A stretch of 64,000 nucleotides of DNA. It comes from Thiomicrorhabdus sp. Milos-T2 (GTDB lineage Bacteria; Pseudomonadota; Gammaproteobacteria; Thiomicrospirales; Thiomicrospiraceae). Both the position numbers and the translations under genes were made by a program. How positions within the stretch are numbered: the stretch's first letter is position 1; each line of letters begins with the position of its first letter. The notes beneath the pieces were generated by a model, which did not search any database, was not told the DNA's origin, and saw only the letters and a list, made by a program, of their open reading frames with translations. The DNA lies in assembly GCF_000702325.1 (NCBI RefSeq), contig NZ_KL370892.1, forward strand, positions 186,001 to 250,000. The letters are read 5' to 3'. This document shows positions 29,417 through 46,470 of the stretch, piece after piece.

Positions 29417-29593
29417 GAGACCTTTGCACGAGTCCGGGATGTAAGAAAAAAGTAAAAAGATTATTTAGATTTAGTCTAAAAAATACGGGTATTAGCTAGT
29501 AATAGCTAGCGCTTCGTATTGGGCGGATATTTTAGGCTAGAGATAGAGAATTAGAGCCTTATTTATACACGCATCTAATCTTGCAAAAGTCTC
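29417..29593. repeat. MITE-like dispersed element, copy D
   Basis: The clearest full copy: 177 bp, left end GAGACCTTTGCACGAGTC, right end CTTGCAAAAGTCTC (inverted). Internal features are GATTTAGTCTAAAAAATAC and the palindromic TAGCTAGTAATAGCTA. No open reading frame. The right end overlaps the TGA stop of the leftward outer-membrane protein gene. Confidence 0.75.
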
Positions 29594-30671
29594 AATAAGT
29601 GTAAAAATGCATTTCTAGCATCAATCTAACGCTATACTCTGGCTCTTTAAAACTATCCGTTTCACTCCATGTTGCTCTAGGTTCAAATTCACTATAAAGC
29701 CAATTATGGTAAAGCCTTTCCCGCCAATTCATCCCAAAAGCAACAGACTTAAACATGGCATCTTCATTATTAATATTCCAGTTACCATCTAAAAAATAAG
29801 CACGGGCTCTAATCGGTGAGACGGACTCAAATAAAATAGCCTTTTGATTCAACAAAATCTCAGAATCTTCTCGCCACCAAGTGGCAGAAGTTTGGCCTCT
29901 TGCTAACCATTTAGGATTCAACTTATAGTCAAAAACCTGCTGCCCTTCCCAAGCAAAACCACGCTCTCTTTCTAAATATAGATTTTGAGTTGTACGAGAC
30001 TCTACTTTATTTTCAAAATTATTTTTATAACGCACCTTATATTTAACAAACGGATTAGGCTCAATATAATTAATAAATTTCAACCCCATATCCATTTGAG
30101 CAATAATGCCTTTTGTAGATTCAAAAAGGTACCTACCCGCCAAGGTATTTTGTGTATCGTTGTCAACGGTATTTTGAGTATTTGATGGCTTAATGCCTGA
30201 TTGATTTAAGCTGTTTGAGTTTTGTTCTTCATCTCCTTCAAAAGAGGAAACCAAGACTTTCCAACGGTGATTTGTTCTAGGTAAATCAATTTGTGCTTTA
30301 AAATTTAAACTACTAACACTATCGCCATTATCATAATAAGTGAAAGGTGCATAGACAATTAGTCGACTACCTTTTTCAGAAACTTCGGATATATCAGTTC
30401 CAAAAAATCGGTCTATTGTTTCGCCCGTACTTTGCACATAACTCCCAACATAGGCTTGAGCCGAAGACAGCCCTGCAAGATAACTTTTAATGGTTGGATT
30501 TTCTACACGCTCTAAAATAGGCGTACTAAATTCTTTAGTGGCAACTTTCTGTTGATTTTGAAGCTCATTATTGGTTACTGAGCCAGGTAGAACCTTTTTT
30601 TCATTAGCAATAGTTTGTGATGAGAATAATACACTGCTAACGAGTAAAACTTTTATAATAGCATCTTGCAT
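29592..30671 (-). CDS. Predicted outer-membrane beta-barrel protein, function unknown
   Basis: 359 residues, with a signal peptide (IIKVLLVSSVLFSSQTIANE). The C-terminal two thirds alternate short amphipathic strands and turns rich in aromatic residues (RARAYFLDGNWNINNED, YSVRLMLEMHFYTY), and the last residue is an aromatic Tyr, as in outer-membrane barrels. The region after residue 160 has an N/Q/S/T-rich linker. I do not recognise a family. The gene is divergent from the next with only 43 bp between starts, and its stop codon lies in the end of the dispersed element at 29417-29593. Confidence 0.75.
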   Translation of the reverse strand: MQDAIIKVLLVSSVLFSSQTIANEKKVLPGSVTNNELQNQQKVATKEFSTPILERVENPTIKSYLAGLSSAQAYVGSYVQSTGETIDRFFGTDISEVSEKGSRLIVYAPFTYYDNGDSVSSLNFKAQIDLPRTNHRWKVLVSSFEGDEEQNSNSLNQSGIKPSNTQNTVDNDTQNTLAGRYLFESTKGIIAQMDMGLKFINYIEPNPFVKYKVRYKNNFENKVESRTTQNLYLERERGFAWEGQQVFDYKLNPKWLARGQTSATWWREDSEILLNQKAILFESVSPIRARAYFLDGNWNINNEDAMFKSVAFGMNWRERLYHNWLYSEFEPRATWSETDSFKEPEYSVRLMLEMHFYTY

Positions 30672-31637: not shown

Positions 31638-31767
31638 TATGATTAAAAAGAGTTTTTTTAAACTTGTGTTACGAAGAAGTAATACTTTGAGACTTTTACG
31701 CGAAGCTATTCAAAGAAATAGTATTAGTAATAAGCTCTCAATCTTTAGCTATCATGTGGAGAAGCTT

Positions 31768-33183
31768 ATGCAGAAATCTCATCAACCTGACTTAATACCA
31801 ATGAGTCAAAAAATCGTTTTTGGGCTTGGAATGCTCGGTAATCAAATGTTCCCAGCGGCACTCGGTGTGTTTATGGTGGTACTCGTTCAAAGTTTAGGAA
31901 TTCACCCCGTTCTTTGGGGTTTACTTTTTTTTATTCCTCGCTTAGTCGATGCCATTACTGACCCTATTATGGGCTTTATATCAGATAACACAAAATCTCG
32001 TTGGGGCCGCCGCCGACCTTACGTTTTTGTTGGCGCTTTATTAGCTGGCTTCAGTTTTATAGCGATGTGGCAAATCTACCCCGAAAATGGTCAGATTTAT
32101 AATTTTTGGTACTTTTTAATCCTATCGCTATTTTTCTATTTTGGAATGACTCTCTTTTCGACACCTTATGTTGCTATGGGTTACGAGATGAGTTCAGATT
32201 ATCATGAAAGAACTCGTTTAATGGCGGTTGCTCAATGGCTTGGTCAATGGTCTTGGGTAATCGTTCCTTGGTTTTGGATGATAATATACAACCCGGACTG
32301 GTTTACCGGTGCTGCAGAAGGTGCTCGTGAATTAGCTTTTTGGGTTGGTATAGGCTGTTTATTATTATGTCTTGTACCTGCTGTTTTTGGTAAAACCCAG
32401 CCTTCTCCTGAAAAAGTTGAAGATATTTCTTTAAAGAATATAAAACAAAGCACCACTCATCTACTTGATGGACTTAAAGAAGTTCTTAAACATAAAGATT
32501 TTCGCCGAATTTGTATTGCGACCTTTCTAATATTTAATGCATTTAATACCGTTGCTGGGTTCTCTTTTTTTATTATTGTCTACTATATGAATGGCGGTGA
32601 TGTGCCTGCTGCTGGTAATTGGCCGGCATGGTTTGGATCATTAAGTGCACTTGCTACCTGTTTTTTAGTTATACCTATTGTGACTTTTTTATCACAACGT
32701 GTTGGAAAGCGTAAAACCTTTCTTATTACTCAGGGAATATCTCTAATTGGTTATGCTATGTTTTTATGGGCTTTTCAACCAGAAAATCCTTACTTAATGT
32801 TCTTACCGTTACCCTTATTTGCTTTTGGTATTGGAGGACTATTCACCTTAATGATGTCGATGACTGCAGATATTTGTGATTTGGATGAACAAAAATATGG
32901 TGTACGTAGAGAGGCAACTTTTGGTGCTGTATATTGGTGGATGGTTAAAGTTGGATTCGCTATTGCAGGAATGTTAAGTGGGTTTATCTTATGGTTAATC
33001 GGATTTGACCAAACAATAGCTCAACAAACGCCAGAAACACTTGAAGGCTTATTATTAGCTTACGTTTTAGTACCGAGTATTGGAACGATTCTCGCCATGT
33101 GGGTAATGAAAAACTACGGCTTAAGTGAAACTAAAGTTCATCAAATACGTGCTGAACTTGATCTACGCCATAAACTGGCATAA
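31768..33183 (+). CDS. GPH-family sugar:cation symporter (MFS)
   Basis: 471 residues and about 12 membrane segments. The glycoside-pentoside-hexuronide signature is clear: PRLVDAITDPIMGFISDNTK then SRWGRRRPYVF after the second helix. The homologue class imports oligosaccharides or glycosides with Na+ or H+ (MelB relatives). The frame is open from 31639, but the ATG at 31768 follows GTGGAGAAGCTT at a good distance and directly precedes the family-type N-terminus. A candidate operator at 31626 links it to the GH16 operon. The likely substrate is short beta-1,3-glucan oligosaccharides; this is inference from context. Confidence 0.88.
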   Translation: MQKSHQPDLIPMSQKIVFGLGMLGNQMFPAALGVFMVVLVQSLGIHPVLWGLLFFIPRLVDAITDPIMGFISDNTKSRWGRRRPYVFVGALLAGFSFIAMWQIYPENGQIYNFWYFLILSLFFYFGMTLFSTPYVAMGYEMSSDYHERTRLMAVAQWLGQWSWVIVPWFWMIIYNPDWFTGAAEGARELAFWVGIGCLLLCLVPAVFGKTQPSPEKVEDISLKNIKQSTTHLLDGLKEVLKHKDFRRICIATFLIFNAFNTVAGFSFFIIVYYMNGGDVPAAGNWPAWFGSLSALATCFLVIPIVTFLSQRVGKRKTFLITQGISLIGYAMFLWAFQPENPYLMFLPLPLFAFGIGGLFTLMMSMTADICDLDEQKYGVRREATFGAVYWWMVKVGFAIAGMLSGFILWLIGFDQTIAQQTPETLEGLLLAYVLVPSIGTILAMWVMKNYGLSETKVHQIRAELDLRHKLA

Positions 33184-33386: not shown

Positions 33387-34382
33387 TTACTGGCTTTTTA
33401 AAGGCAAAGTAATTTTAGGTTTTCTATTTGAATAATAAACACCCCAATGCTTTTCAGCTTTGGCCTCAGCATTCACTCCATCATGGCCACCTTTCCAGTT
33501 TTCATCAAAAGCCTCAAAATAAAATGAAACAATCTTTTCTTTATTGATCCATTCATTATATTGCGTAAAAAACTTTTCTAAATTGGCAACATTTGCCTTG
33601 CCAATTAATCCACCTTCATAAGTGCCATCGTTATAAATTCGGCTGGTTGGCCAACCCGTTTCGCCTAAAACTATTTGCTTATTTGGGTAACGGCTTTGAA
33701 TATCTTTATAAATACCCTGCGTCCACTTCAAACTGCCTTTTAATGTTTTGTTGTTCCAAAAAGCATAGGCATGCAAGCCAATAAAATCGATTTCTTTTGC
33801 AATTTTTTTGGCCGCAGGTTTATTCCAAAAATTGTAGTCATCATTCACGGTAACAGGCTGTTGAATCGACCTTTTTGTTTGACGGATATAATTCACTATT
33901 GGCTTGAAATCATTAACCTTATGAGCGGACCAATCAACAAAAATCTCATTTCCAAGATTAACCGCTACAATTATATCTGGATAGGTATTTGCAAGCTTAA
34001 TCACTCTAGAGACTTCAGCATCATTTTGCTGCTGAGTCTGCTTACCTGAAATCCAAGCACCTTGCATCACTTTTATTTTTAGATCATTTTCATGAATGAC
34101 CTCCAGAACTCTTCTAGAGTTCTGACTAGTGTCATACAAACGAATCAAATTCCAATGTTTAGACAATATTTTAAGGTCTTCTAATATATTCTCTTTAGGT
34201 GTTAGACTCTTTTTATCTGGAGACTCACCATCGCGGTATGAGGAATAAGAAATGCCATTCCCAACCCAATTACCACCTATACTGGGGGCAAATACGGTAT
34301 TAGAACTGGCATAAACTAAGCTACCCTGAATTAATACCAAAAATACAGCTAAACTAACTAAGATGATTTTGCGCAGATTCAT
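33387..34382 (-). CDS. GH17 family beta-1,3-glucanase, exported
   Basis: 331 residues with a signal peptide (IILVSLAVFLVLIQGSLVYA). The GH17 fold is recognisable from RLYDTSQNSRRVLEVI, the acid/base Glu146 in VNLGNE and the nucleophile Glu241 in LGETGWPTS. GH17 enzymes cleave or transglycosylate beta-1,3-glucans. No lipobox or anchor is seen, so it is periplasmic or secreted; the gspC-N system encoded downstream is a possible route. It is convergent with the transporter gene and on the same strand as the regulator 300 bp upstream, with a MITE-like element between them. Confidence 0.9.
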   Translation of the reverse strand: MNLRKIILVSLAVFLVLIQGSLVYASSNTVFAPSIGGNWVGNGISYSSYRDGESPDKKSLTPKENILEDLKILSKHWNLIRLYDTSQNSRRVLEVIHENDLKIKVMQGAWISGKQTQQQNDAEVSRVIKLANTYPDIIVAVNLGNEIFVDWSAHKVNDFKPIVNYIRQTKRSIQQPVTVNDDYNFWNKPAAKKIAKEIDFIGLHAYAFWNNKTLKGSLKWTQGIYKDIQSRYPNKQIVLGETGWPTSRIYNDGTYEGGLIGKANVANLEKFFTQYNEWINKEKIVSFYFEAFDENWKGGHDGVNAEAKAEKHWGVYYSNRKPKITLPLKSQ

Positions 34383-34683: not shown

Positions 34684-35736
34684 TTATGAGTCTCTCCTCG
34701 CACAGCTACCTCTAACAATAAGGTTAGCTGACAAAGAGACATGTTGAAAAGTTAAAGGTTTGTTATCAAGAATTTGCTTAAGCATACTAAATGCATGGTG
34801 TGCAATTTCTTGTGTTGGTACAGCAATAGTCGTTAACGCTGGAGTAACTTGACTAGCGACTTGAATATCATCAAAGCCAATGACACTAATATCGCCTGGT
34901 ATTCGAACATTAGCGGCTTTTAAACGCTGTATAGCACCCAAAGCCATAGAGTCATTAGAACAAATAATTGCTTGTGGTAATTCATCTTGCTGTAAAAAAT
35001 AATTGGCTCCATCAACCCCTGATTCAAACGAATAGTTTCCGTAAAAAACCAGGTCTTCACTATTTACCAAACCAAAATCAATAACTCCCTGTCTATAACC
35101 ATTTAAACGATTACGTCCTACATCTGAATTATTTAAACCTGTCATAAATGCCACTTTTTTATGACCTAATTTATTGAGATATTCAACTGTTGAATAATCA
35201 GCGGTAAAGTTATCAATGACTACAGAAGGAATTGTTTGATCTTTTGATGCATTATCTATAGCCAAAACAGGCAGCTGCTTTTTCATTTGCGCAATAATCG
35301 CTTCATTGTGTGGAAAACAAGTCGCAATCACGCCATCAACTTTTTTTAACACCTTACTTAGGCGCTCTGCATCAGCATCTGAAAAATAAATAACCGTAAA
35401 ATCATATTTTGCCGCCTCTTTTTCAATGGCGTTGTAAATCATCGAGTAATAAGGGCTAGATATACCCAACTTAATACGCTGATCAATAAAATAGCCAATT
35501 GTTGAATGCTTTACATTTTTTTCTTTATTAACGAACGTACCCTTCTTAGGCACTTTAAAAAGTACATTTTTATGAACAAGATTAGTGATTGCTTTTCTTA
35601 CCGTCATGTAAGAAAAACCAAACTCTTTAGCAAGCGTGCGTTCACCAGGTAACTTATGCTGAATTTGCTTATCCTGAATGGCTTTAATAATAGATTCTTC
35701 TACTATTTTATATTTTGGAGTGGTTTTTTTACTCAT
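34684..35736 (-). CDS. GntR/LacI-hybrid transcriptional regulator of the glucan locus
   Basis: 350 residues from the chosen start. Residues 1-70 form a GntR-type winged helix (LPGERTLAKEFGFSYMTVRK, then KKGTFV), and the rest is a LacI/GalR-type sugar-binding domain (IGYFID, GVIATCFPH, GRNRLNGYRQG, ISVIGFDDIQVASQVTP). This is the AraR-like architecture. The frame is open to 35841, but the start MSKKTTPKYK at 35736 fits the family. It is divergent from the GH16 operon, and two palindromic sites lie between them. It probably represses in the absence of a glucan oligosaccharide. Confidence 0.88.
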   Translation of the reverse strand: MSKKTTPKYKIVEESIIKAIQDKQIQHKLPGERTLAKEFGFSYMTVRKAITNLVHKNVLFKVPKKGTFVNKEKNVKHSTIGYFIDQRIKLGISSPYYSMIYNAIEKEAAKYDFTVIYFSDADAERLSKVLKKVDGVIATCFPHNEAIIAQMKKQLPVLAIDNASKDQTIPSVVIDNFTADYSTVEYLNKLGHKKVAFMTGLNNSDVGRNRLNGYRQGVIDFGLVNSEDLVFYGNYSFESGVDGANYFLQQDELPQAIICSNDSMALGAIQRLKAANVRIPGDISVIGFDDIQVASQVTPALTTIAVPTQEIAHHAFSMLKQILDNKPLTFQHVSLSANLIVRGSCARRDS

Positions 35737-35972
35737 AGTCAAACCAATAATAAAGTCCTCAAAAAAAGTTAATTTCGAACATTGCGCAAATGGGGATCGC
35801 AAAAAATGTGCAAAAATTTCTCGACTTAACCTCTCGGTCATCGAGTTTTTTGTTTATCTGATTTAGGCGAAAAATTCAGCCCATAATTAGTAGATACCTT
35901 TGCCAGAGTCACTAATTACTAATCTTAATGATTCTACTAAAGAGTGAACTTAAATTTCTGTATTTCTTTAAA

Positions 35973-36119: not shown

Positions 36120-36183
36120 AGATAAATAAAAATTAAAATATTGTCAAAAATTGTATAAATAAGTCATGACACAGAGGAGTGAG

Positions 36184-39100
36184 ATGATGAAAAAATCTAG
36201 CCAAAGACGGCTTCTAGCCACATTAGCTTTAGCCATTGCTACTGGACTAGCTGGTTGTGGTAGCGGTGAAAAAATTACAGCTCCTACTTCTCTAGGTTTT
36301 TCAGCTATTGATGGATATCTTTCAGGGATGTTCTGTTATGCCGATATGAATAGCAATAAAGTTTATGACCAAAGCATAGATATTGCAGCAACAAGTTTGA
36401 CAGATGCAAAAGGTAATTTCACCATTACTGGCGTTGGTATTGAAAACACGTCTACAATTTGCCGAGCTGAAGCCAATTCAAGAGATCAAAGTACTGGGGA
36501 AACTTTTAGTGGTCAATTAAGTGCACCTCCAGGATCTAAACACGTCACTCCAGTCACTACTTTAATCATGGCGCTTGGTGGAGATAGTACTGCTGAAGCC
36601 TCAGTTAGATCTCTTTTAGGTTTAGATAATGCGATAGACCTTAAAGCCGACCCTCTTAGCAACCCTGCGCTTGCAAAAGCTGCCGCTAAAATTCAGGCAA
36701 TTGTTGCAGCGGTAACCAACGCAATTAGTCAACAGACCGGAGCTACTCAACCGAGTCAAAAAAATGCGATTGCGGCAGAAGCATTTAAAGCTATAGCCAA
36801 AAATGTAACGGGGCAATCAACACCTTTATCAGATACCGTATTTTTAAACAATATAATCAATGATACCACCGCGGCTACTACAGGATCTACAAGCAATGAT
36901 GAGTCTAACAATCTAGGCAATGCCTTGGTTGATATTATGAACAATATCGATAGCGAATATGATTCTGTTATTACTCAAGTACAAGCAGGAACTTTATCTG
37001 ATGACGAACTAGAAAATGCCCTTAATAATGCACAATCTAATAGCTCATCAAATAGTCAATTAGAGACTGCCTTTACAAATAATGGGGTCAACCTAACGAG
37101 TAACTCGCTTCAATTAAATGGTGACCTTAATATTGATGAATCTGATGCAACCATAGGAAGCCCTACAAAAGCTCTTTATTCAAGCAATGGTTATAATGAT
37201 CCCGAAACCTTTGCTGGTGAATTCCCTCTTTCAGCATTTGATAGCGGGGCTTCATTTGACGCTAGCGTAACAACTGACAATTCGTTTGATCGTGTTTTTT
37301 CTGTAGCAAGTGGCACGGGTTATGGCAAAAATATTGCCCTTGCAGCCTTTGTAAATTACTCGCCTGGTTTTTTGTCAGCTTATGACACTTTCAAAATTAA
37401 AGTAAAAGGGTCACCAAGCAATAAAGTTAAAATCGCATTTTTCACAAGAGAAGGCGTAACCAAAAGCCAAGAAAGCGCTGTAACTGTTGACCTAAGTACA
37501 TATGAAAATGCCAACGACATTGGTAATGGCTGGTATGAAGTTAGCATTCCTTTTTACAAATTCAGCAATAATTCTCAAGCGAACTTAGACTTACAAACCT
37601 CTTGGTACATTAGACCAACAGATGAATTGGATACCCCTTTCACCTTCTATTTTACGGACGTTGAATTGGCGTTTGAAGGCCAAGTAGAGCCAGTAACTCC
37701 TCCGTCAACCCTTTTAATTTCTAACGGAGATTTCTCAAATACCACCGCGGGTTGGTCTGGCAATGCATTTAATGTCGTTGATGGCGCTAACTTCGCTAAT
37801 GTGACTTCTGCAGGCAATCCTTATGATGTTAATTTAAGTAATGTCACAACTTTAGAACAAGGTCAAACTTATACCCTTTCATTCAAAGCGAAAGGGACTG
37901 CTGGCAGAACCATGATTGCTGGGGTTGGTTTAAATGAAAATCCTTATACCAGTGCGACTGAAACCACAACCTTGACCAGTGATTATCAAACCTTTACTTA
38001 TACTTTTTCAAATATCGCCTTTGGCGGCGCCAACAGTCGTGTTTTATTTGACTTAGGTGCGGATACCGGTGAAGTATTCATTGATGATGTTACTTTGGTT
38101 AAAGACGTTGCACAACCATCTTCTACTTACCAACTTGTCTGGTCAAACGAGTTTGACACTGACTCTCTTGCAAACTGGAACATTGAAACGGGTTATGGAC
38201 CAAACTCTGATGGTTGGGGAAATGATGAGAGCCAGCTTTATACTAACGATGCTGCAAATGTTAGTGTTGCAAATGGTGATTTAGTGATTACAGCAAAATG
38301 TGATTTAAATGTAGATGGAACTTGTGGCATAAGAAATGATGCAATTACCTCTGCACGCTTAAACACTAAAGATAAGGTTGAATTCCGTTATGGAAAAATC
38401 GAAGCACGAATTAAAGTGCCAGCAGGCATGTCTACCTGGCCAGCTTTTTGGATGCTTGGTGCAGCTTTTCCTGATACCCAATGGCCAGATGTTGGAGAAA
38501 TGGATATTATGGAAGTCTGGCAAACTGGAGGTGCAAGTTTAAACCAGTCCAACTCAACCATTCATTACTCTGAAAATGCCGGACATGTTATAGATTCAGG
38601 AGACCTTGTATTAACAGATTCTCTTGCGGATGATTATCATATCTGGGCTTTAGAATGGACAGAAACATCACTTGCCTTTTCTATTGATGGCCAAGCCTAT
38701 AAAACCATTGATATTTCAGATGCTAAGTACGCAGCTTTCAAACAACCTTTCTTCTTGTTGTTGAATATTGCCATTGATGGGACTCTAGGTGGCGCACCAG
38801 ATGCGATTATTAATACGCCCCAGAAAATGTTAGTGGATTACGTCAAGCTCTATCAAGACGCAAGTAACACAAATAATTTGTTTACAGAAGCCAATGCAAC
38901 CCCACAAGCATTAACCTTAACAGTAAAAGCGGATAATGCCTCTGCTGTTAGGATGACCGGACCTTTCTGGGGATGGGATCCAGCAGGTGGACCTGAAGCG
39001 ACTGACAATGGTGATGGTACTTGGACAGTGACTTTAGATCCTGCTCCAACTGCTGACATGGAATATTTATGGGTTGTTGATGGTGTTCAGGAAAATCTTA

Positions 39101-39855
39101 CTGACAACGCTAACCCAGATTATTCCTGTACTCCAATAACTGACAACGCCACTTATGCAAACCGTCAGTGGACCGTGGGATCAGCTAATGTCACTGATGA
39201 TATTTTTGACAGTTGCGCAATACCTTTAACCTTAACCGTGTCTGCGAACAATGCCTCTGCTGTTAGGATGACCGGACCTTTCTGGGGATGGGATCCAGCA
39301 GGTGGACCTGAAGCGACTGACAATGGTGATGGTACTTGGACAGTGACTTTAGATCCTGCTCCAACTGCTGACATGGAATATTTATGGGTTGTTGATGGTG
39401 TTCAGGAAAATCTTACTGACAACGCTAACCCAGATTATTCCTGTACTCCAATAACTGACAACGCCACTTATGCAAACCGTCAGTGGACCGTGGGATCAGC
39501 TAATGTCACTGATGATATTTTTGACAGTTGCGCAATACCTTTAACCTTAACCGTGTCTGCGAACAATGCCTCTGCTGTTAGGATGACCGGACCTTTCTGG
39601 GGATGGGATCCAGCAGGTGGACCTGAAGCGACTGACAATGGTGATGGTACTTGGACAGTGACTTTAGATCCTGCTCCAACTGCTGACATGGAATATTTAT
39701 GGGTTGTTGATGGTACACAGGAGAACTTACTCGATAACAGCCCTCAAGATTTATCATGTACGCCTGTTACCGATAACGCTAATTATGCGAACCGTCAGTG
39801 GCTGCTTGATTCACCAAATATAACCGGAGATGTGTATGACTCCTGTCAACCTTAA
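36184..39855 (+). CDS. GH16 beta-1,3-glucanase lipoprotein with CBM-like and tandem repeat domains
   Basis: About 1223 residues from the ATG at 36184, which follows AGAGGAGT. The signal ends in a lipobox-like GLAGC with Gly next, so it is predicted as an outer-membrane lipoprotein. In order: an Asn/Ser/Thr-rich N-terminal part with a carboxypeptidase-regulatory-like segment (YADMNSNKVYD), a galactose-binding-like domain (about 329-499), a CBM4/9-like module (about 508-643), a GH16 domain (about 647-890) with the catalytic GEMDIMEV (Glu772, Asp774, Glu777), and three 105-residue repeats starting near 910, 1015 and 1120. The repeats, with MTGPFWGWDPAGGPEATDNG, look like a carbohydrate-binding beta-sandwich. 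It is predicted to cut laminarin-type glucan at the cell surface. Confidence 0.9.
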   Translation: MMKKSSQRRLLATLALAIATGLAGCGSGEKITAPTSLGFSAIDGYLSGMFCYADMNSNKVYDQSIDIAATSLTDAKGNFTITGVGIENTSTICRAEANSRDQSTGETFSGQLSAPPGSKHVTPVTTLIMALGGDSTAEASVRSLLGLDNAIDLKADPLSNPALAKAAAKIQAIVAAVTNAISQQTGATQPSQKNAIAAEAFKAIAKNVTGQSTPLSDTVFLNNIINDTTAATTGSTSNDESNNLGNALVDIMNNIDSEYDSVITQVQAGTLSDDELENALNNAQSNSSSNSQLETAFTNNGVNLTSNSLQLNGDLNIDESDATIGSPTKALYSSNGYNDPETFAGEFPLSAFDSGASFDASVTTDNSFDRVFSVASGTGYGKNIALAAFVNYSPGFLSAYDTFKIKVKGSPSNKVKIAFFTREGVTKSQESAVTVDLSTYENANDIGNGWYEVSIPFYKFSNNSQANLDLQTSWYIRPTDELDTPFTFYFTDVELAFEGQVEPVTPPSTLLISNGDFSNTTAGWSGNAFNVVDGANFANVTSAGNPYDVNLSNVTTLEQGQTYTLSFKAKGTAGRTMIAGVGLNENPYTSATETTTLTSDYQTFTYTFSNIAFGGANSRVLFDLGADTGEVFIDDVTLVKDVAQPSSTYQLVWSNEFDTDSLANWNIETGYGPNSDGWGNDESQLYTNDAANVSVANGDLVITAKCDLNVDGTCGIRNDAITSARLNTKDKVEFRYGKIEARIKVPAGMSTWPAFWMLGAAFPDTQWPDVGEMDIMEVWQTGGASLNQSNSTIHYSENAGHVIDSGDLVLTDSLADDYHIWALEWTETSLAFSIDGQAYKTIDISDAKYAAFKQPFFLLLNIAIDGTLGGAPDAIINTPQKMLVDYVKLYQDASNTNNLFTEANATPQALTLTVKADNASAVRMTGPFWGWDPAGGPEATDNGDGTWTVTLDPAPTADMEYLWVVDGVQENLTDNANPDYSCTPITDNATYANRQWTVGSANVTDDIFDSCAIPLTLTVSANNASAVRMTGPFWGWDPAGGPEATDNGDGTWTVTLDPAPTADMEYLWVVDGVQENLTDNANPDYSCTPITDNATYANRQWTVGSANVTDDIFDSCAIPLTLTVSANNASAVRMTGPFWGWDPAGGPEATDNGDGTWTVTLDPAPTADMEYLWVVDGTQENLLDNSPQDLSCTPVTDNANYANRQWLLDSPNITGDVYDSCQP
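38911..39855 (+). repeat. Three 315-bp in-frame tandem repeats in the GH16 gene
   Basis: Units start at 38911, 39226 and 39541, each 315 bp or 105 codons. From about 38938 the units are identical over most of their length, the second and third over nearly 490 bp combined period; the last ~140 bp of unit three (after 39712) and the first ~27 bp of unit one differ. Silent sites are also identical, indicating recent duplication or gene conversion. Confidence 0.9.
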
Positions 39856-39906: not shown

Positions 39907-42900
39907 ATGACATCCAACAAATCAATGAATAAAAGCAAACTAACCGTCTGCTCAATTTTTCTTTCTGCTGGTTTATTATTTACAAGTCAAGCCATTGCAA
40001 TGCACGATGTAAAACTCAATAGCGATGAGAAAGGCTCAAAACTTCAAGTAGACGGTAAGGACTTCTTTGTTAAAGGAGTTGTTTGGGGCTACAGTCCTAG
40101 AGATGAAAACTTTACTTATAATCTTTGGGGGCAACCTGAGGAAGATATCCGAGCAGTGCTTGATTATGACTTTGGATTAATGAAAAAAGCAGGGATTAAT
40201 GCCATTCGTACTTTTATGATGATTCCGCCTAAGTGGGTGGAATATGTCTATAAAAGATATGGCATTATGACAGCCGTTAACCCGCTCATGGGTCGTTACG
40301 GTGCAACCATTAATGGTACATGGGTTGAAAACACAGACTATTCTGACCCTGCTACCCGTAAAGCATTAAAACAGCAAGCACTCGACGTAGTAAGACGATA
40401 CAAAGATACACCGGGTGTTTTAATGTTTGCCTTCGGTAACGAAAGTAACTACGGATTAAGCTGGAAAAGCTTTGAGATTGAAAACCTACCAGTTGGTGAG
40501 CAAAACCATGCTAAAGCTGAATTCCTTTACTCTTTATTTGATGAAGTCATCGATGAAGGTAAAAAAATCTCCCCTAATCATCCTTTTACCATTGTCAATG
40601 GCGATATTCAATATTTAGATATCATCGCCAAAGAGGGTGATGACTGGGACTTATTAGGGGTTAACGCCTACCGAGGTAAAAGCTTTACTAAGCTTTGGAG
40701 TGATGTAAAGACTAAATACAATAAACCTGTTTTACTGTTTGAATTTGGTGCAGATGCCTTTAATGAAAAAGCATTTAAAGAAGACGAACGCTCTCAAGCT
40801 GAATACTTAAAAGCCCAATGGGAAGAAATGTATAGTCAAGCTTACGGTAATGGCGCAGAAGGCAATTCTTTAGGTGGCTTTATATTTGAGTGGCGTGACG
40901 AATGGTGGAAATATAAACAGACCGAAAACCTAGATAAACACGATAAACACGCGTCTTGGTCTAATGGAGGTTATAAGTACGACTTTCAAGAAAATGCTAA
41001 TAACATGAACGAAGAATGGTGGGGAATTAACCGTTTAGGTAAAGCCAATTCTGATGGCGTTTATGAGGCTGAAACCCGTTTAGCACTCGACGTATTAACT
41101 CAAGTTTGGAAAGTAAATCCTTACCAAAAAAGCAAGACCAGCAAAAAGAACGCTTCAATCGATATGGATGCTTTAGCAGATTATCGTTCAAAAAATGCTC
41201 AAAGAAGCGATGCCTTAATGGGTAATGACACTTTTAGATTGACCGGTGCTCGTATTAAAGTAGAAGGTATTAATAACGGATTGGGTGGCCCTATAGAAGA
41301 TAAAGGCATTAGTAGTGGCTCTAAAACAGACGGTGGAGTCATGGGCTTTACTGATTTTGAGTTTGAGCCTAATTCAAAGTTTAGAAGCGCTTTTACCCTC
41401 AACTACACGCCTAATGCTGCAGATAGTATCTTTGAATTTAGATATGGTGATCGAGTTAATGATGATAAAGACAATCAATTAGAAGTTTACAGTTTTGATG
41501 CTAACTACAATGCTGAGAATTATGATTTAGATCTTTTCTACCATGTGCCGCGTTATCACTGGGGTTATGAAGGAGACTTTTTTGGTTTGGTCAGAGAAAC
41601 CACTGATATGACAGGACCAAATGGCCAAGATATTTGGAATGCAAAAGCCCCTTACGGATTTCAATTTGATGGTAAAAAGGCTTTAAAAGGTTTTACATTA
41701 CTTGCTGGGCCTGAAGTCTACTGGGGAGCCAACCCTAAATTTATTGCAAAATATCGTTTTGGTGACCAGCAGCAGTATTCTATTATGCATTCACAAGATT
41801 TTGATAGAGCGGGTAGTGCGGATGGTGGTCAAGCGACTCAAAGAAAACAAGCTCAAACAACCGTACAAGGTGAATTTAATTTAAGTCCTGACACTAAATT
41901 ACAAATGGGTGCCATCGTTTCTGGGCGAGACAAAATTGGTGAAAAATACAAAAAAGTTAATAACGGCAGCCTAACCGAAAAGGAAATTGAATTTAAAGAC
42001 ACTCTGGGCATTAAGGCTAAAATCCAACACACACTAGCCAATAACGCAAAACTCATCGTAGCTGGGCAGTATGCTGGGCTTGTAGCAGATGCCGGAGACC
42101 CTTTAACGGAATTTGGAACCAATCTTCCCTACTCCGGATTAGGAAACAAAGCGGTTGCAGAAGTGGGAATGCAATTAAATTATGGTAATTTTATGCTATA
42201 CCCTCGTCTGTTTGCTCGAGATAACCTCATAGATTCTATGACATATCCTGGATCAACACCACGTGATACAGACAGTGACCCATTTGCTGTTTTGGGTAAC
42301 CGAAAAGTGCGAGCTGCTGAGTTTATGCTAACTTATGACCCAACACCGGCAACGCCTTTTTATAACTGGGACAATGATATGCGTGAAGATGCTAAATTAG
42401 CCTTCAACGTTGGGTTAACCTATATGGACTATGGCACCAAAACAGATGCTTACAGAGCTTATTTCTCAGATACTAATTTTCAAGGAGAAGCGGCATTTGC
42501 AAGTGGTTTAGATTCAGATCAACTTTGGCTGCTATCATCAAAAATTGTACTTAACCCAAGTAATCAATACCGTGCAATCATTCGCACAAGTATGGGTAAA
42601 GAGCAGACAACCGGCTCTCCAGTTCCTGCAACTAATTTTAGAAGCATAGATGCGAAACTGGTTTATAAAAATCGTCATATAATAACGGCATCTTTTGCTC
42701 AAGATAAATGGGGTCCATATGACTTCCAACGTCAATTTGGCATCGTTTATCCAGAACAATATAAGCTTTCCTATAGCTACTTACTTGATAAAGGCGTTAG
42801 AGAAGCAAATTCAAGCAAAGTTGGCATTAAATTGTTCTATCGAACTCTTGATAAAGATAGTCCAGAGTATCGTTTGAATCTAGCAAATGGCGATTATTAC

Positions 42901-42951
42901 ATCAACTCTGATATGTATGAAGTGCAGACCTTTATTGAATATCACTTTTAG
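39907..42951 (+). CDS. Glycoside hydrolase (clan GH-A) fused to a predicted outer-membrane barrel
   Basis: 1014 residues. A signal peptide ends near AIA (residue 31). Residues about 45-390 form a TIM-barrel like GH2/GH5 catalytic domains: FVKGVVWGYSP, INAIRTFMM, acid/base Glu179 in FAFGNES and nucleophile Glu279 in VLLFEFGAD. After a K/N-rich linker (about 400-430), the remaining ~580 residues alternate amphipathic strands and polar loops (FRSAFTLNYTPNAADSIFEF, MYEVQTFIEYHF) and end in Phe, as in outer-membrane barrels. I know no described family with this fusion. Context suggests beta-1,3-oligoglucan trimming at the outer membrane. The exact GH family is uncertain. Confidence 0.75.
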   Translation: MTSNKSMNKSKLTVCSIFLSAGLLFTSQAIAMHDVKLNSDEKGSKLQVDGKDFFVKGVVWGYSPRDENFTYNLWGQPEEDIRAVLDYDFGLMKKAGINAIRTFMMIPPKWVEYVYKRYGIMTAVNPLMGRYGATINGTWVENTDYSDPATRKALKQQALDVVRRYKDTPGVLMFAFGNESNYGLSWKSFEIENLPVGEQNHAKAEFLYSLFDEVIDEGKKISPNHPFTIVNGDIQYLDIIAKEGDDWDLLGVNAYRGKSFTKLWSDVKTKYNKPVLLFEFGADAFNEKAFKEDERSQAEYLKAQWEEMYSQAYGNGAEGNSLGGFIFEWRDEWWKYKQTENLDKHDKHASWSNGGYKYDFQENANNMNEEWWGINRLGKANSDGVYEAETRLALDVLTQVWKVNPYQKSKTSKKNASIDMDALADYRSKNAQRSDALMGNDTFRLTGARIKVEGINNGLGGPIEDKGISSGSKTDGGVMGFTDFEFEPNSKFRSAFTLNYTPNAADSIFEFRYGDRVNDDKDNQLEVYSFDANYNAENYDLDLFYHVPRYHWGYEGDFFGLVRETTDMTGPNGQDIWNAKAPYGFQFDGKKALKGFTLLAGPEVYWGANPKFIAKYRFGDQQQYSIMHSQDFDRAGSADGGQATQRKQAQTTVQGEFNLSPDTKLQMGAIVSGRDKIGEKYKKVNNGSLTEKEIEFKDTLGIKAKIQHTLANNAKLIVAGQYAGLVADAGDPLTEFGTNLPYSGLGNKAVAEVGMQLNYGNFMLYPRLFARDNLIDSMTYPGSTPRDTDSDPFAVLGNRKVRAAEFMLTYDPTPATPFYNWDNDMREDAKLAFNVGLTYMDYGTKTDAYRAYFSDTNFQGEAAFASGLDSDQLWLLSSKIVLNPSNQYRAIIRTSMGKEQTTGSPVPATNFRSIDAKLVYKNRHIITASFAQDKWGPYDFQRQFGIVYPEQYKLSYSYLLDKGVREANSSKVGIKLFYRTLDKDSPEYRLNLANGDYYINSDMYEVQTFIEYHF

Positions 42952-43005: not shown

Positions 43006-46000
43006 TTGGATAACCTGATAAGTGAAAAAACAACCGGTAAGTTTGTTGAACTTAAAAATGAACGATATTACCTAATTGAAAACATCGACTCGATGCCTAA
43101 CTTTTTTATGAGCATAGTATCGCACAGTGATCATTGGTTGTTTATCTCATCAAATACAGGGTTAACTGCGGGTCGTGTATCTTCTGATTCTGCCTTATTT
43201 CCCTATGCCGCCGTAGACAAAATACAAGACAGCGCAGAACATAGTGGTAATAAAACGATATTAAGAGTTAAATCAAAAGACAGCACAGATAGCAAAGATA
43301 GCTGGGTCATTTGGGAACCTTTTAAACCTTTAACGACTCAACAAAAAGACTTAAAGCGAAACCTTTATAAGCATGTACTTGGAAACAAAATATGCTTTGA
43401 GGAGTTTAATGAGACTCTAAATATGACTTTTCGTTTTACTTGGAATGTTAGTGACGAATTTGGTTTTGTGGTTGAATCTGAAATTATTAATCATTCCACG
43501 CAAACATTAGAATTAGAAGTGATGGATGGGTTGCAAAATATTCTACCTGCTTCAGTACCAACAGAAGTACAGACCAACGCAAGTAATCTGGTTGATGCAT
43601 ATCGTTTCAACGAACAGGAGCATGAAACCGGTGTAGCCATATTTTCACTCTACTCTGGCATTACTGATAAGCCAGAACCTGTGGAAGTTCTAAAAGCCAA
43701 TACTGCTTTTCAAATAGGTTTAGATAACCCTCAAATACTTCTTAGCTCCAGGCAAATTAATGCATTTACATCAGGCAAAGACCTACAGCCTGAAGAAACC
43801 ATTCGCGGCATTCGGGGGGCATATTTTGTAATTTCAAGCTTACAATTACAGCCCGGCTGTAACAAAGAATGGAAAATCATTGCTAACGTCGAACAAAATC
43901 AAACAGAAATTGTTCAACTTATTTCAAGATTAAAACAAAACCCTACCTTACTCAATCAGGAACTAGAGAAAACCATTAAAAGCGGTTCTGAGAAATTAAA
44001 AGATTTAATTTCTCAGGCTGATGGCCATCAACTTACTGGCAGCGAAATGGATGATGTTCATCATTATTCTAATGTGCTATTCAATTCTATGCGTGGCGGA
44101 GTATTTGATGATCAATATTGGATTAACTCTAGTGAATTTGCTAAAAATATTGAACATTTCAATAAAGTTATTTTTGAAGAACATGCTAATTTTTTTACAG
44201 GCCTGCCAAAGCAAATATCGTTGCTTGAACTACGTGAAAAAATTGCTCTAGAAAATAACAGCCAATTAGAGCGATTATGTTCTGATTATTTACCTATTAC
44301 CTTTGGTAGAAGACATGGCGACCCAAGCCGACCTTGGAACCGATTCTCTATTAATATAAAAGATAATTCAGGCAATAGAATTCTGGCCTATGAAGGTAAT
44401 TGGCGTGATATTTTTCAAAATTGGGAAGCTCTTTTATTAAGCTATCCAGAGTTTATTGAAAACGTAATCTCCAAATTTGTAAACTCTAGCACAATAGATG
44501 GTTACAACCCCTATCGCATTACTAACAAGGGTATTGATTGGGAAATAGAAGACCCAAAAGATCCTTGGAGTTACATAGGCTATTGGGGTGATCATCAAAT
44601 TATCTATTTGCTTAAGCTTCTGGAATTATCCAACAAATATCATCCAAAAAAATTAGCTGAGATGCTTAGCAAGTCTATCTATTCTTATGCAAATGTACCT
44701 TATAGAATTGCGTCTTTTGACAAACTATTGCTCGATCCCAAAAACACGGTTAAATACGACGAAGATGAAGAGCAACTGATTCAGAAAAGAATAAAATCCA
44801 TGGGGGCTGACGGAAAGTTAGTTTTGAATTCTAATGGAGATGTCTATCAAGTTAACTTACTAGAAAAATTACTGGTGCCTCTATTATCTAAATTAAGTAA
44901 TTTTGTGCTTAGAGGTGGGATTTGGTTAAACACCCAGAGACCAGAATGGAATGATGCTAACAATGCATTAGTTGGGCAAGGACTCTCGATGGTGACTCTT
45001 TATTATATGAGACGCTATGTAGATTTTTTACAACAAATATTGCAAACTCAACAGAACCAAGCGGCGTGCTCCACCGAAGTCGTTACGTGGTTTTTAGAAA
45101 CCGCCAATAGCATAGAGCAGGCCTGTAAACATCTTAATGAGCATGGTGAATTTAGTGATGCTTATCGTTTTGAAATGCTCAGTTCTCTAGGGCAATCAGC
45201 TAGTGCTTATCGTCAAAAAATATATAAATCTAAATGTTTTTCAGGTAAAACAGAATTAGACATCAATCACTTAAAATCAATGCTTAGCAACGTAACTACA
45301 TTGTTAGACGACAGTATTAAATACAACCAAAGAACCGATAATCTTTATCATGCATACAATATATTAAGTATTGAAAAGCAATCGCTCTCAGTAGATTATT
45401 TATATGCTATGTTAGAAGGCCAGGTATCGGTGCTAAGCTCTGGCACACTTGAAAAAAATGATGTCATTACATTGTTAAAAAGCCTATTTAAGTCTGACCT
45501 GTTCCGTGAAGATCAAAAGACCTTTATGCTATATCCAGATGAACCGCAAAAACCTTTCTTGCAAAAAAATTCTATCTCTCTTGCTCAAATAGATGAGGAT
45601 AAAAATTTAAGTCAATTAGTCAAAGTTAATGATCAAATCATTATCGTTAAAGATGACATCCTCCAAATATATCGTTTTCATCATGAAATCATAAATTTAG
45701 AAATATTAAATAACAAATTAGATAGTTTAAAAACTCAATTAGGAACTCAATTTGAAATAGTTAAACTAGCCGTAGTCAATCTCTATAAAGACATTTTTAA
45801 TCACAAAGAGTTCACCGGACGGTCTCATGGAATGTTTGGTTTTGAGGGTCTTGGTTGTATTTATTGGCACATGGTATCTAAGTTACTTTTAGCCACACAA
45901 GAAAGTTTTTTTCACGCTATTGCAACCCATGCATCCACAAATGAAATTACCGAATTAGGACAACTCTACTATAGAATTAGAGAGGGTATCGGCTTTAATA

Positions 46001-46470
46001 AAACACCGGCTGAGTATGGTGCTTTCCCATATGATCCTTACTCACACACGCCCAAACATTCTGGCGCCCAACAACCAGGCATGACCGGCCAGGTTAAAGA
46101 GGAAGTATTAACTCGTTTTGGAGAACTTGGCATTCAAATTAAGAATGGTATTGTTCATTTTGCTACTGACCTTTTAAGAAAAACAGAATTTAATTCCGCC
46201 CAGAACAACTTTGAATATTTGGCTGTATCTGGTAAACGCCAGAATCTAATGCTGCCAGAAAATTCAATTGCTTTTACAGTTTGTCAGACACCCATAATTT
46301 ATAAATTAGTAAATAAGGACAGTTATTTAGTGATCAAATGGAGTGATGGTCGATTAGAAACACGTGATGAGTTAAATCTATCAGTTCAAGAAAGCGAAGA
46401 AATCTTTAAAAGAACAAATAAGATTATTAGTCTTGAAGTGGGTCTTGATGAATCTAAATTCAATTTTTAA
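43006..46470 (+). CDS. GH149-like beta-1,3-oligoglucan phosphorylase
   Basis: 1154 residues, no signal peptide, so cytoplasmic. The start is TTG, with AAAGGAGC five bases before it. The large N-terminal beta-rich region, the segment YEGNWRDIFQNWEALL and the catalytic-region motif RPEWNDANNALVGQG (candidate acid Asp650) resemble GH149/GH94-type inverting phosphorylases, and the size matches GH149 rather than the shorter GH94 laminaribiose enzymes. Such enzymes release glucose 1-phosphate from beta-1,3-oligoglucans using phosphate. It lies 54 bp after the GH-barrel fusion gene in the same operon. A related GH94/GH161 specificity cannot be excluded. Confidence 0.8.
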   Translation: MDNLISEKTTGKFVELKNERYYLIENIDSMPNFFMSIVSHSDHWLFISSNTGLTAGRVSSDSALFPYAAVDKIQDSAEHSGNKTILRVKSKDSTDSKDSWVIWEPFKPLTTQQKDLKRNLYKHVLGNKICFEEFNETLNMTFRFTWNVSDEFGFVVESEIINHSTQTLELEVMDGLQNILPASVPTEVQTNASNLVDAYRFNEQEHETGVAIFSLYSGITDKPEPVEVLKANTAFQIGLDNPQILLSSRQINAFTSGKDLQPEETIRGIRGAYFVISSLQLQPGCNKEWKIIANVEQNQTEIVQLISRLKQNPTLLNQELEKTIKSGSEKLKDLISQADGHQLTGSEMDDVHHYSNVLFNSMRGGVFDDQYWINSSEFAKNIEHFNKVIFEEHANFFTGLPKQISLLELREKIALENNSQLERLCSDYLPITFGRRHGDPSRPWNRFSINIKDNSGNRILAYEGNWRDIFQNWEALLLSYPEFIENVISKFVNSSTIDGYNPYRITNKGIDWEIEDPKDPWSYIGYWGDHQIIYLLKLLELSNKYHPKKLAEMLSKSIYSYANVPYRIASFDKLLLDPKNTVKYDEDEEQLIQKRIKSMGADGKLVLNSNGDVYQVNLLEKLLVPLLSKLSNFVLRGGIWLNTQRPEWNDANNALVGQGLSMVTLYYMRRYVDFLQQILQTQQNQAACSTEVVTWFLETANSIEQACKHLNEHGEFSDAYRFEMLSSLGQSASAYRQKIYKSKCFSGKTELDINHLKSMLSNVTTLLDDSIKYNQRTDNLYHAYNILSIEKQSLSVDYLYAMLEGQVSVLSSGTLEKNDVITLLKSLFKSDLFREDQKTFMLYPDEPQKPFLQKNSISLAQIDEDKNLSQLVKVNDQIIIVKDDILQIYRFHHEIINLEILNNKLDSLKTQLGTQFEIVKLAVVNLYKDIFNHKEFTGRSHGMFGFEGLGCIYWHMVSKLLLATQESFFHAIATHASTNEITELGQLYYRIREGIGFNKTPAEYGAFPYDPYSHTPKHSGAQQPGMTGQVKEEVLTRFGELGIQIKNGIVHFATDLLRKTEFNSAQNNFEYLAVSGKRQNLMLPENSIAFTVCQTPIIYKLVNKDSYLVIKWSDGRLETRDELNLSVQESEEIFKRTNKIISLEVGLDESKFNF
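44198..44205. repeat. CAGGCCTG palindrome in the phosphorylase gene
   Basis: Copy of the dispersed palindrome (ACAGGCCTGCC). A second lies at 45118-45125 in the same gene. Confidence 0.6.

Follow-up and report, generated by a model that had tools for sequence, protein, structure and literature searches.

The window analysed here, a stretch of 64,000 nucleotides from Thiomicrorhabdus sp. Milos-T2 (contig NZ_KL370892.1), carries a gene in which a glycoside hydrolase (GH) domain of clan GH-A is joined to an outer-membrane beta-barrel in a single polypeptide. The fusion is real, occurs in several phyla and is conserved, and its architecture is well supported. As far as searched it is undescribed: no description of a GH fused to an outer-membrane barrel was found among the matches listed for titles and abstract openings of open-licence PMC papers. 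The fused architecture, the GH-A active site, the outer-membrane barrel and a surrounding beta-glucan locus are supported by computation. On balance, and with some reserve, we favour the reading that hydrolase and barrel together serve the uptake of beta-1,3-glucan of the laminarin type.

Architecture of the fusion protein

The open reading frame has no internal stop in the genome copy (G000:C2:225907-228948). The protein consists of a signal peptide, a clan GH-A domain, a helical linker and a strand-rich half with a terminal Phe (...YEVQTFIEYHF), laid out as follows in window positions.

39907..42951, plus strand: GH-A / outer-membrane barrel fusion gene; open reading frame with ATG start, 1014 amino acids, intact in the genome
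39907..40002, plus strand: signal peptide region, residues 1-32; helix 8-26 in the model, cleavage probably after AIA (by eye)
40003..41121, plus strand: clan GH-A catalytic domain (Pfam, profile, fold), residues 33-405, nearest to GH158 by sequence
40441..40443, plus strand: E179, predicted acid/base; invariant in 72/72, aligned with the NE of BuGH158
40741..40743, plus strand: E279, predicted nucleophile; invariant in 72/72, aligned with the TEWG glutamate of BuGH158
41122..41232, plus strand: helical linker, residues 406-442; helix 420-438 in the model
41233..42951, plus strand: outer-membrane beta-barrel of about 24 strands, residues 443-1014, plus stop (barrel-alone model, Foldseek, VIA)

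The family alignment has 72 rows, the window protein and 71 near-full-length relatives; the cut-off members L027, L029, L039, L043 and L049 are excluded. An AlphaFold2 model of the whole protein has a predicted local distance difference test score (pLDDT) of 84.6. Hydrophobic N-termini like that of the window protein are seen in most relatives viewed (every third alignment row). The original prediction, made from the DNA alone, had proposed a clan GH-A N-terminal half with Glu179 and Glu279, and both residues are present and invariant in all aligned sequences. It had also proposed a C-terminal barrel ending in Phe; this half is indeed modelled as a barrel, now placed from about residue 443 and with about 24 strands. 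Ordinary porins have fewer, 16-18. The linker varies between 31 and 45 amino acids and has a mean conservation of 0.34, compared with 0.67 for the GH domain and 0.55 for the barrel.

The C-terminal half

No barrel is among the 50 rows listed by VIA for the full protein; the TIM domain filled that list, and the barrel half was therefore folded alone (pLDDT 86, predicted template modelling score 0.84). With this model the best 50 of 381 Foldseek rows (E up to 0.001) are all solved outer-membrane barrels, and the classes among the matches listed are TonB receptors, AlgE, OprD/Occ porins, OmpF, chitoporin, ushers and the Mtr complex. Among the 50 rows listed by VIA for the barrel, matches over the whole model (about 38-610) are mainly the ushers PapC and FimD, with Z 12.3-15.0 over 335-374 residues and a root-mean-square deviation of 4.5-7.5; AlgE and Occ porins match over part of the span at Z about 14, and VDAC and TOM barrels are also among the rows. 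Query-normalised TM-scores in Foldseek are 0.24-0.41, so the comparison shows the fold class and identifies no relative. The structure prediction suggested earlier as a check has thus given a barrel, and a soluble C-terminal half (carbohydrate-binding module, CBM, or beta-helix) is rejected, because the half folded alone is a barrel of the transmembrane type and so are the structures that it matches.

The sequence has the corresponding pattern. Hydrophobic/polar alternation over 24 strands is 2.21 compared with a mean of 1.29 (standard deviation 0.20) for within-strand shuffles, none of 2000 of which reach 2.21. Conservation is 0.47 on the more hydrophobic strand face and higher, 0.59, on the polar one. 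The protein thus has the usual features of an outer-membrane barrel: a signal peptide, amphipathic strands in even number, inner turns that are short, and the fold itself. The strand count of about 24 comes from merged DSSP segments, so the even number rests on the merging and the count may be off by two. The last residue is Phe in the window protein; in the family it is F in 29/72, W in 6/72 and another residue in 37/72.

Known families do not cover this half. That of the window protein has no Pfam match at E 0.1, and the profile of the 72 barrels finds no PDB sequence at E 10. The 72 C-terminal halves reach only four Pfam families, DUF6882 (6/72), CBM60, FAST_1 and DUF5893 (1/72 each), all at E 0.0085 or weaker, and these are taken as chance. 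The domains of a TonB-dependent receptor or SusC (PF07715, PF00593) are found neither in the window protein at E 1 nor in the 72 C-terminal halves at E 0.1. As no Pfam or NCBIfam model searched covers the barrel, it could itself serve to mark such loci.

Orientation of the barrel and position of the enzyme

Segments between strands average 22.4 residues after odd strands and 6.1 after even strands, and four of the even-strand segments have 2 or 3 residues in 72/72. In outer-membrane barrels the side with short turns faces the periplasm. An even number of strands places both ends of the barrel on that side, and the tethered enzyme is therefore probably periplasmic, below the pore, as judged from loop lengths in the model. 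The original prediction had the hydrolase itself forming the pore; the fusion of GH and barrel stands, and the placement is changed in that the enzyme most likely lies on the periplasmic side. A precedent for such an order is PgaA, where a periplasmic N-terminal tetratricopeptide repeat domain precedes a C-terminal porin (PMC5933820).

The outer-side loops account for 241 of the 572 barrel residues but hold 21 of its 33 invariant residues. Some are nearly fixed in length: loop 5-6 has 34-37 amino acids, loop 7-8 has 7 and loop 21-22 has 11, as would be expected for a binding or constriction zone. On the inner side the segment 811-830 has exactly 20 residues in 72/72 and is well conserved; it may be a docking site for the enzyme.

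A different arrangement would have the barrel as a mere anchor or as a self-export device in the manner of an autotransporter; the GH domain would travel through the lumen and cut laminarin outside the cell. The order of signal peptide, enzyme, helix and C-terminal barrel is the classical autotransporter order, strand parity taken alone is compatible with a surface enzyme, and the Flavobacterium order has two GH relatives that stand alone and resemble lipoproteins. However, classical autotransporters have a 12-stranded barrel with PF03797, whereas the present barrel has about 24 strands and none of the 72 C-terminal halves has a Pfam match to PF03797. Whole-length fold matches are mainly to PapC and FimD, the linker is poorly conserved and variable in length, unlike a helix lodged in a pore, and most invariant barrel residues are in the outer loops. 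An enzyme displayed on the surface is therefore considered unlikely.

Catalytic domain

The only Pfam model that the window protein reaches at gathering score, and its sole match at E 1, is PF02836, the TIM-barrel model of GH2 (E 1.7e-8, residues 84-293). Over the 72 members Pfam gives GH2_C in 66/72 and GH72 in 15/72. NCBIfam matches to the window fusion are all below cut-off and are mostly beta-galactosidases together with a beta-glucuronidase. GH2 enzymes have a sandwich and Ig-like domains ahead of the TIM barrel, whereas in the model of the fusion the TIM domain follows almost directly after the signal peptide, and that GH2 arrangement is absent.

Among PDB sequences, a profile of the 72 N-terminal halves matches BuGH158 (6.1e-10) and GH158(Pro) (1.2e-7) best, both in partial alignments, and beta-galactosidases come next, from 6e-6. 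The catalytic NE and E are in register between this profile and the GH158 sequences: N178-E179 falls on the GNE motif of BuGH158 and E279 on its TEWG motif. The clan GH-A pair of an N-E acid/base and a glutamate nucleophile is thus found as in GH158. In BuGH158 the residues N136, E137 and E220 are essential, E137 being the acid/base and E220 the TEWG glutamate (PMC7157763). In the fold comparison GH157 (Z 29.2), GH158 (28.7; BuGH158 26.4) and human beta-glucuronidase, of the GH2 fold (28.0), are nearly level, and fold alone picks out no single family. Titles of the matched GH157 and GH158 structures include complexes with laminaritriose and laminaritetraose. The GH half thus appears nearest, over partial stretches of sequence, to the GH158 endo-beta-1,3-glucanases, and from sequence and locus context it is predicted to act on beta-1,3-glucan.

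Distribution and age of the fusion

The same fusion was sought in other genomes, as the original prediction had suggested, and was found in many. A scan of named genomes with patterns from the barrel region gave at least 537 related loci, the best 80 of which were examined for full length. Their titles include Gammaproteobacteria, Mariprofundus, Geobacter/Geomonas, Cloacimonadota, Gemmatimonadota, Bacteroidota, Ignavibacteria, Eisenbacteria, Zixibacteria and KSB1. Many of these carriers are Bacteroidota, so the fusion is not confined to bacteria outside that phylum. Cultured environmental carriers include Leucothrix arctica, Flavobacterium aquatile and Geomonas limicola. The fusion gene was called in 76/80 loci; L047, L078, L088 and L091 are without a call and absent from the neighbour counts, probably because the open reading frame picker favoured long antisense frames in GC-rich DNA. 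In a viral collection no relatives were found, either with the single protein or with the alignment as query.

A full-length copy with 75% identity occurs in 1/31 other genomes of the window's genus, several of which are incomplete. In a sample of the window's class, taken to be Gammaproteobacteria, the C-terminal half is matched in 4/369 genomes, the window's own included and with one gene cut by a contig start, and in a sample of the Flavobacterium order 6/196 genomes match, all in frames of 1042-1082 amino acids.

Pairwise identities of the GH and barrel halves are correlated (r 0.86, reached by 0/999 permutations), which points to joint inheritance, and the fusion therefore looks old and stable. 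The barrel profile matched fusion genes only, in 77 loci with the window (some contig-cut) and in five stretches from the Flavobacterium order. A separate relative of the GH domain without barrel, of 585-632 amino acids, is found in nine loci. Two shorter stand-alone GH relatives that look like lipoproteins lie beside GH17 and GH149 genes in the Flavobacterium order (L103:5305-6348 and L104:12815-13819); one of this pair scores 69 bits with the GH profile, compared with 42 for BuGH158.

These relatives bear on the possibility that the barrel is a large glucan porin for passive diffusion, to which the enzyme is loosely coupled, so that the fusion would merely co-localise the two. The variable linker fits such an arrangement, and so do the barrel-free GH relatives in the same kind of locus. 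On the other hand, the barrel never occurs without the GH domain in the loci read, copies cut by contig or fetch ends aside, and the segment 811-830 with its fixed 20 residues in all 72 sequences could be a docking site. Loose coupling of this kind appears improbable.

Gene context

The neighbours of the fusion gene in the window are as follows.

31639..33183, plus strand: GPH-type sugar symporter; TIGR00792 203 bits (below the cut-off of 231), Pfam MFS_2 E 1.8e-69
33387..34382, minus strand: GH17 enzyme, signal peptide by eye; Pfam PF00332 E 1.8e-8
34684..35841, minus strand: regulator with GntR and LacI-type sugar-binding domains (Pfam)
36166..39855, plus strand: GH16 protein that also carries CBM_4_9 and, at the C-terminus, CBM48-like repeats (Pfam; tandem repeat); N-terminus lipobox-like by eye
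43006..46470, plus strand: GH149 beta-1,3-glucan phosphorylase, no signal peptide by eye; NF058639 1621 bits, cut-off 1150

The GH149 gene starts 54 bp past the fusion gene. The same setting recurs elsewhere. There are 52 loci with a length of 17 kb or more, counting the window. Home-made jackhmmer searches detect GH16 in 47 of them, a GPH relative in 36, GH149 in 35, GH17 in 29, GH30 in 28 and GH3 in 16. At least one of the families GH16, GH149, GH17, GH30 and GH3 is present in 52/52 loci, and at least two in 48/52. The next gene lies on the strand of the fusion gene in 69/73 loci.

The barrel also tends to occur with GH149 in whole genomes. GH149 is present in 5/369 genomes of the class sample (one by a partial match below cut-off), including all four with the barrel, and in 17/196 of the order sample, including five of the six with the barrel. 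Fisher P values are 7e-9 for the class and 1.5e-5 for the order; omitting the two genomes around which the samples were drawn gives 5e-7 and 1.5e-4. Because related genomes are not independent, these values overstate the case. The link is one-way, as 12 genomes of the order sample have GH149 without the fusion.

The neighbours are relevant to a further possibility, that the protein exports or remodels a beta-glucan made by the cell itself, like PelA-PelB or PgaB-PgaA. A periplasmic hydrolase at an outer-membrane export pore has the same geometry (PMC5933820), the alginate transporter AlgE is among the fold matches, and phosphorylases of the GH149 kind are reversible (PMC5827456). Nevertheless, the recurrent neighbours identified, from ten representatives and the window genes, mostly fall into four kinds: hydrolases, a phosphorylase, symporters for sugars, and regulators. 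A glucan synthase is absent from these ten representatives and the window genes, most neighbours being unscanned. Export is very improbable.

A small lipoprotein-like family lies directly after the fusion gene in all 30 loci, of 77, that have it (e.g. L018:7184-7897 and L014:13034-13708). Its members have 192-268 amino acids in 28/30 and 385 and 446 in the others, and the one member scanned has no Pfam match. No member adjoins the fusion gene of the window, and a search of the window's genome, run without positive control, gave no match to the family. It is a possible partner of the barrel.

Some other features of the window and its relatives were observed. In the GH16 protein, positions 38935-39714 hold 2.5 copies of a 315-bp tandem repeat with 100% matches encoding CBM48-like domains, which is probably recent. 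Upstream of the symporter, 29592-30671 on the minus strand encodes a secreted-looking protein of 359 amino acids with a weak OmpW match (E 0.0074, far under cut-off) and no Pfam match, possibly another outer-membrane protein. Two matches to the RuBisCO large subunit are present in the host genome (G000:C1: L095, L096), and window genes resemble by eye cytochrome oxidase and sulfide-dehydrogenase flavoprotein; the host is a probable autotroph with a laminarin-type locus, judging from its genes. This locus was not seen in 30/31 other genomes of the genus. In the relative that has it, two large proteins are encoded after the locus, and judged by eye they are recombinase-like, as of a mobile element (L012:9007-14414, same record as L011).

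Proposed mode of uptake

For the favoured reading, uptake of beta-1,3-glucan by the fused hydrolase and barrel, we infer a periplasmic side for the enzyme, conductance by the barrel, the substrate and a pull by hydrolysis. GH16 would shorten laminarin outside the cell. The conserved outer loops would bind the glucan chains, which would then enter the barrel, and the enzyme tethered at the periplasmic mouth would cut the chains on their way out of the pore, preventing their return by diffusion. The pieces would be trimmed further by GH17 and moved into the cytoplasm by the GPH symporter, where GH149 would produce glucose-1-phosphate. Import would be pulled by hydrolysis instead of TonB. In its strongest form, this proposal makes the fusion a widespread and unstudied class of TonB-independent outer-membrane glycan importer: an enzyme built into the protein at the periplasmic end of the roughly 24-stranded pore would, by hydrolysis, make the uptake of beta-1,3-glucan chains one-way. 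This we put forward only tentatively.

The earlier statement that no TonB receptor is encoded at the locus agrees with what is found: the window's contig has no TonB plug protein, and the three plug domain matches in the genome are all on a contig other than the window's. Plug-domain matches occur in 4/77 loci with a home-made profile; as all four proteins are among its eight seeds, the profile added nothing beyond them, and its sensitivity is uncertain.

Several observations weigh against the proposal. TonB plug matches are present in 30 of the 32 host genomes tested (of the 80 loci), with 2 to 100 in each; most hosts are thus able to make TonB receptors, and unlinked ones could carry the sugar. 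The two host genomes without a plug match also lack PF00593, but both are metagenome-assembled genomes and may be incomplete. GH149 loci without the fusion likewise lacked a linked plug or SusD in 10/12 cases. In fold the GH half resembles the GH2-type glucuronidases about as closely as GH158, and the conserved loops could close the barrel.

A replacement of SusC/D by the fusion is not established. Of 17 loci with GH149 in the Flavobacterium order, read over stretches of 14-20 kb, plug or SusD is found in 0/5 with the fusion and in 2/12 without it, which is no real contrast.

Relation to known systems

Laminarin uptake in Bacteroidota is usually ascribed to TonB-dependent SusC/D. The occurrence of the same fusion beside genes for glucan digestion in several phyla suggests a little-studied mode of algal sugar uptake. 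If the proposal is true, a hydrolase-barrel protein in several phyla, probably filed as a GH2 enzyme, would be a second route for laminarin, and it would offer a simple system in which to study whether a polymer can be drawn across a membrane by hydrolysis. More than 10% of the carbon dioxide fixed each year is attributed to laminarin (PMC11345257).

The fusion may already be present in published loci under other names. In Muricauda, laminarin loci with a 'GH2 beta-glycosidase' together with LuxR, one or two GH16, GH149, GH17, GH30 and a major facilitator superfamily (MFS) transporter have the same gene set as fusion loci of Flavobacteriia such as L083 (PMC13188888). This 'GH2', elsewhere termed a GH2 beta-1,6-glucosidase by its authors (PMC13188888), is probably the fusion gene, as judged from the gene set. 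'Outer membrane' and 'TonB' have zero occurrences in the main text of that paper. The 'GH0' of North Sea laminarin loci (PMC10108472) might be a further member of the family.

The nearest enzymes, BuGH158 (PDB 6pal) and GH158(Pro) (PDB 9oro), have the clan GH-A fold, the aligned NE and nucleophile and the beta-1,3-glucan context in common with the fusion. Their chains of 407 and 424 amino acids, unlike the fusion, are too short to hold a membrane barrel as well, and BuGH158 has an Ig-like domain in its place (PMC7157763). SusCD utilisomes likewise hold an enzyme at an outer-membrane glycan transporter, but there the enzymes are separate lipoproteins outside a TonB-dependent SusC (PMC7618045), whereas the fusion is one polypeptide without plug match and with the enzyme probably inside. 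PelA-PelB and PgaB-PgaA have a periplasmic glycoside hydrolase beside an outer-membrane pore, as proposed here; they are pairs of proteins working in the direction of export (PMC5933820), in contrast to the single protein in a catabolic-type locus described above. In Formosa, where laminarin enzymes are encoded near TonB receptors and SusD, an MFS-GH17 protein also joins a hydrolase to a transporter within a laminarin locus, but its transporter has 12 membrane helices and is not an outer-membrane barrel (PMC6246565).

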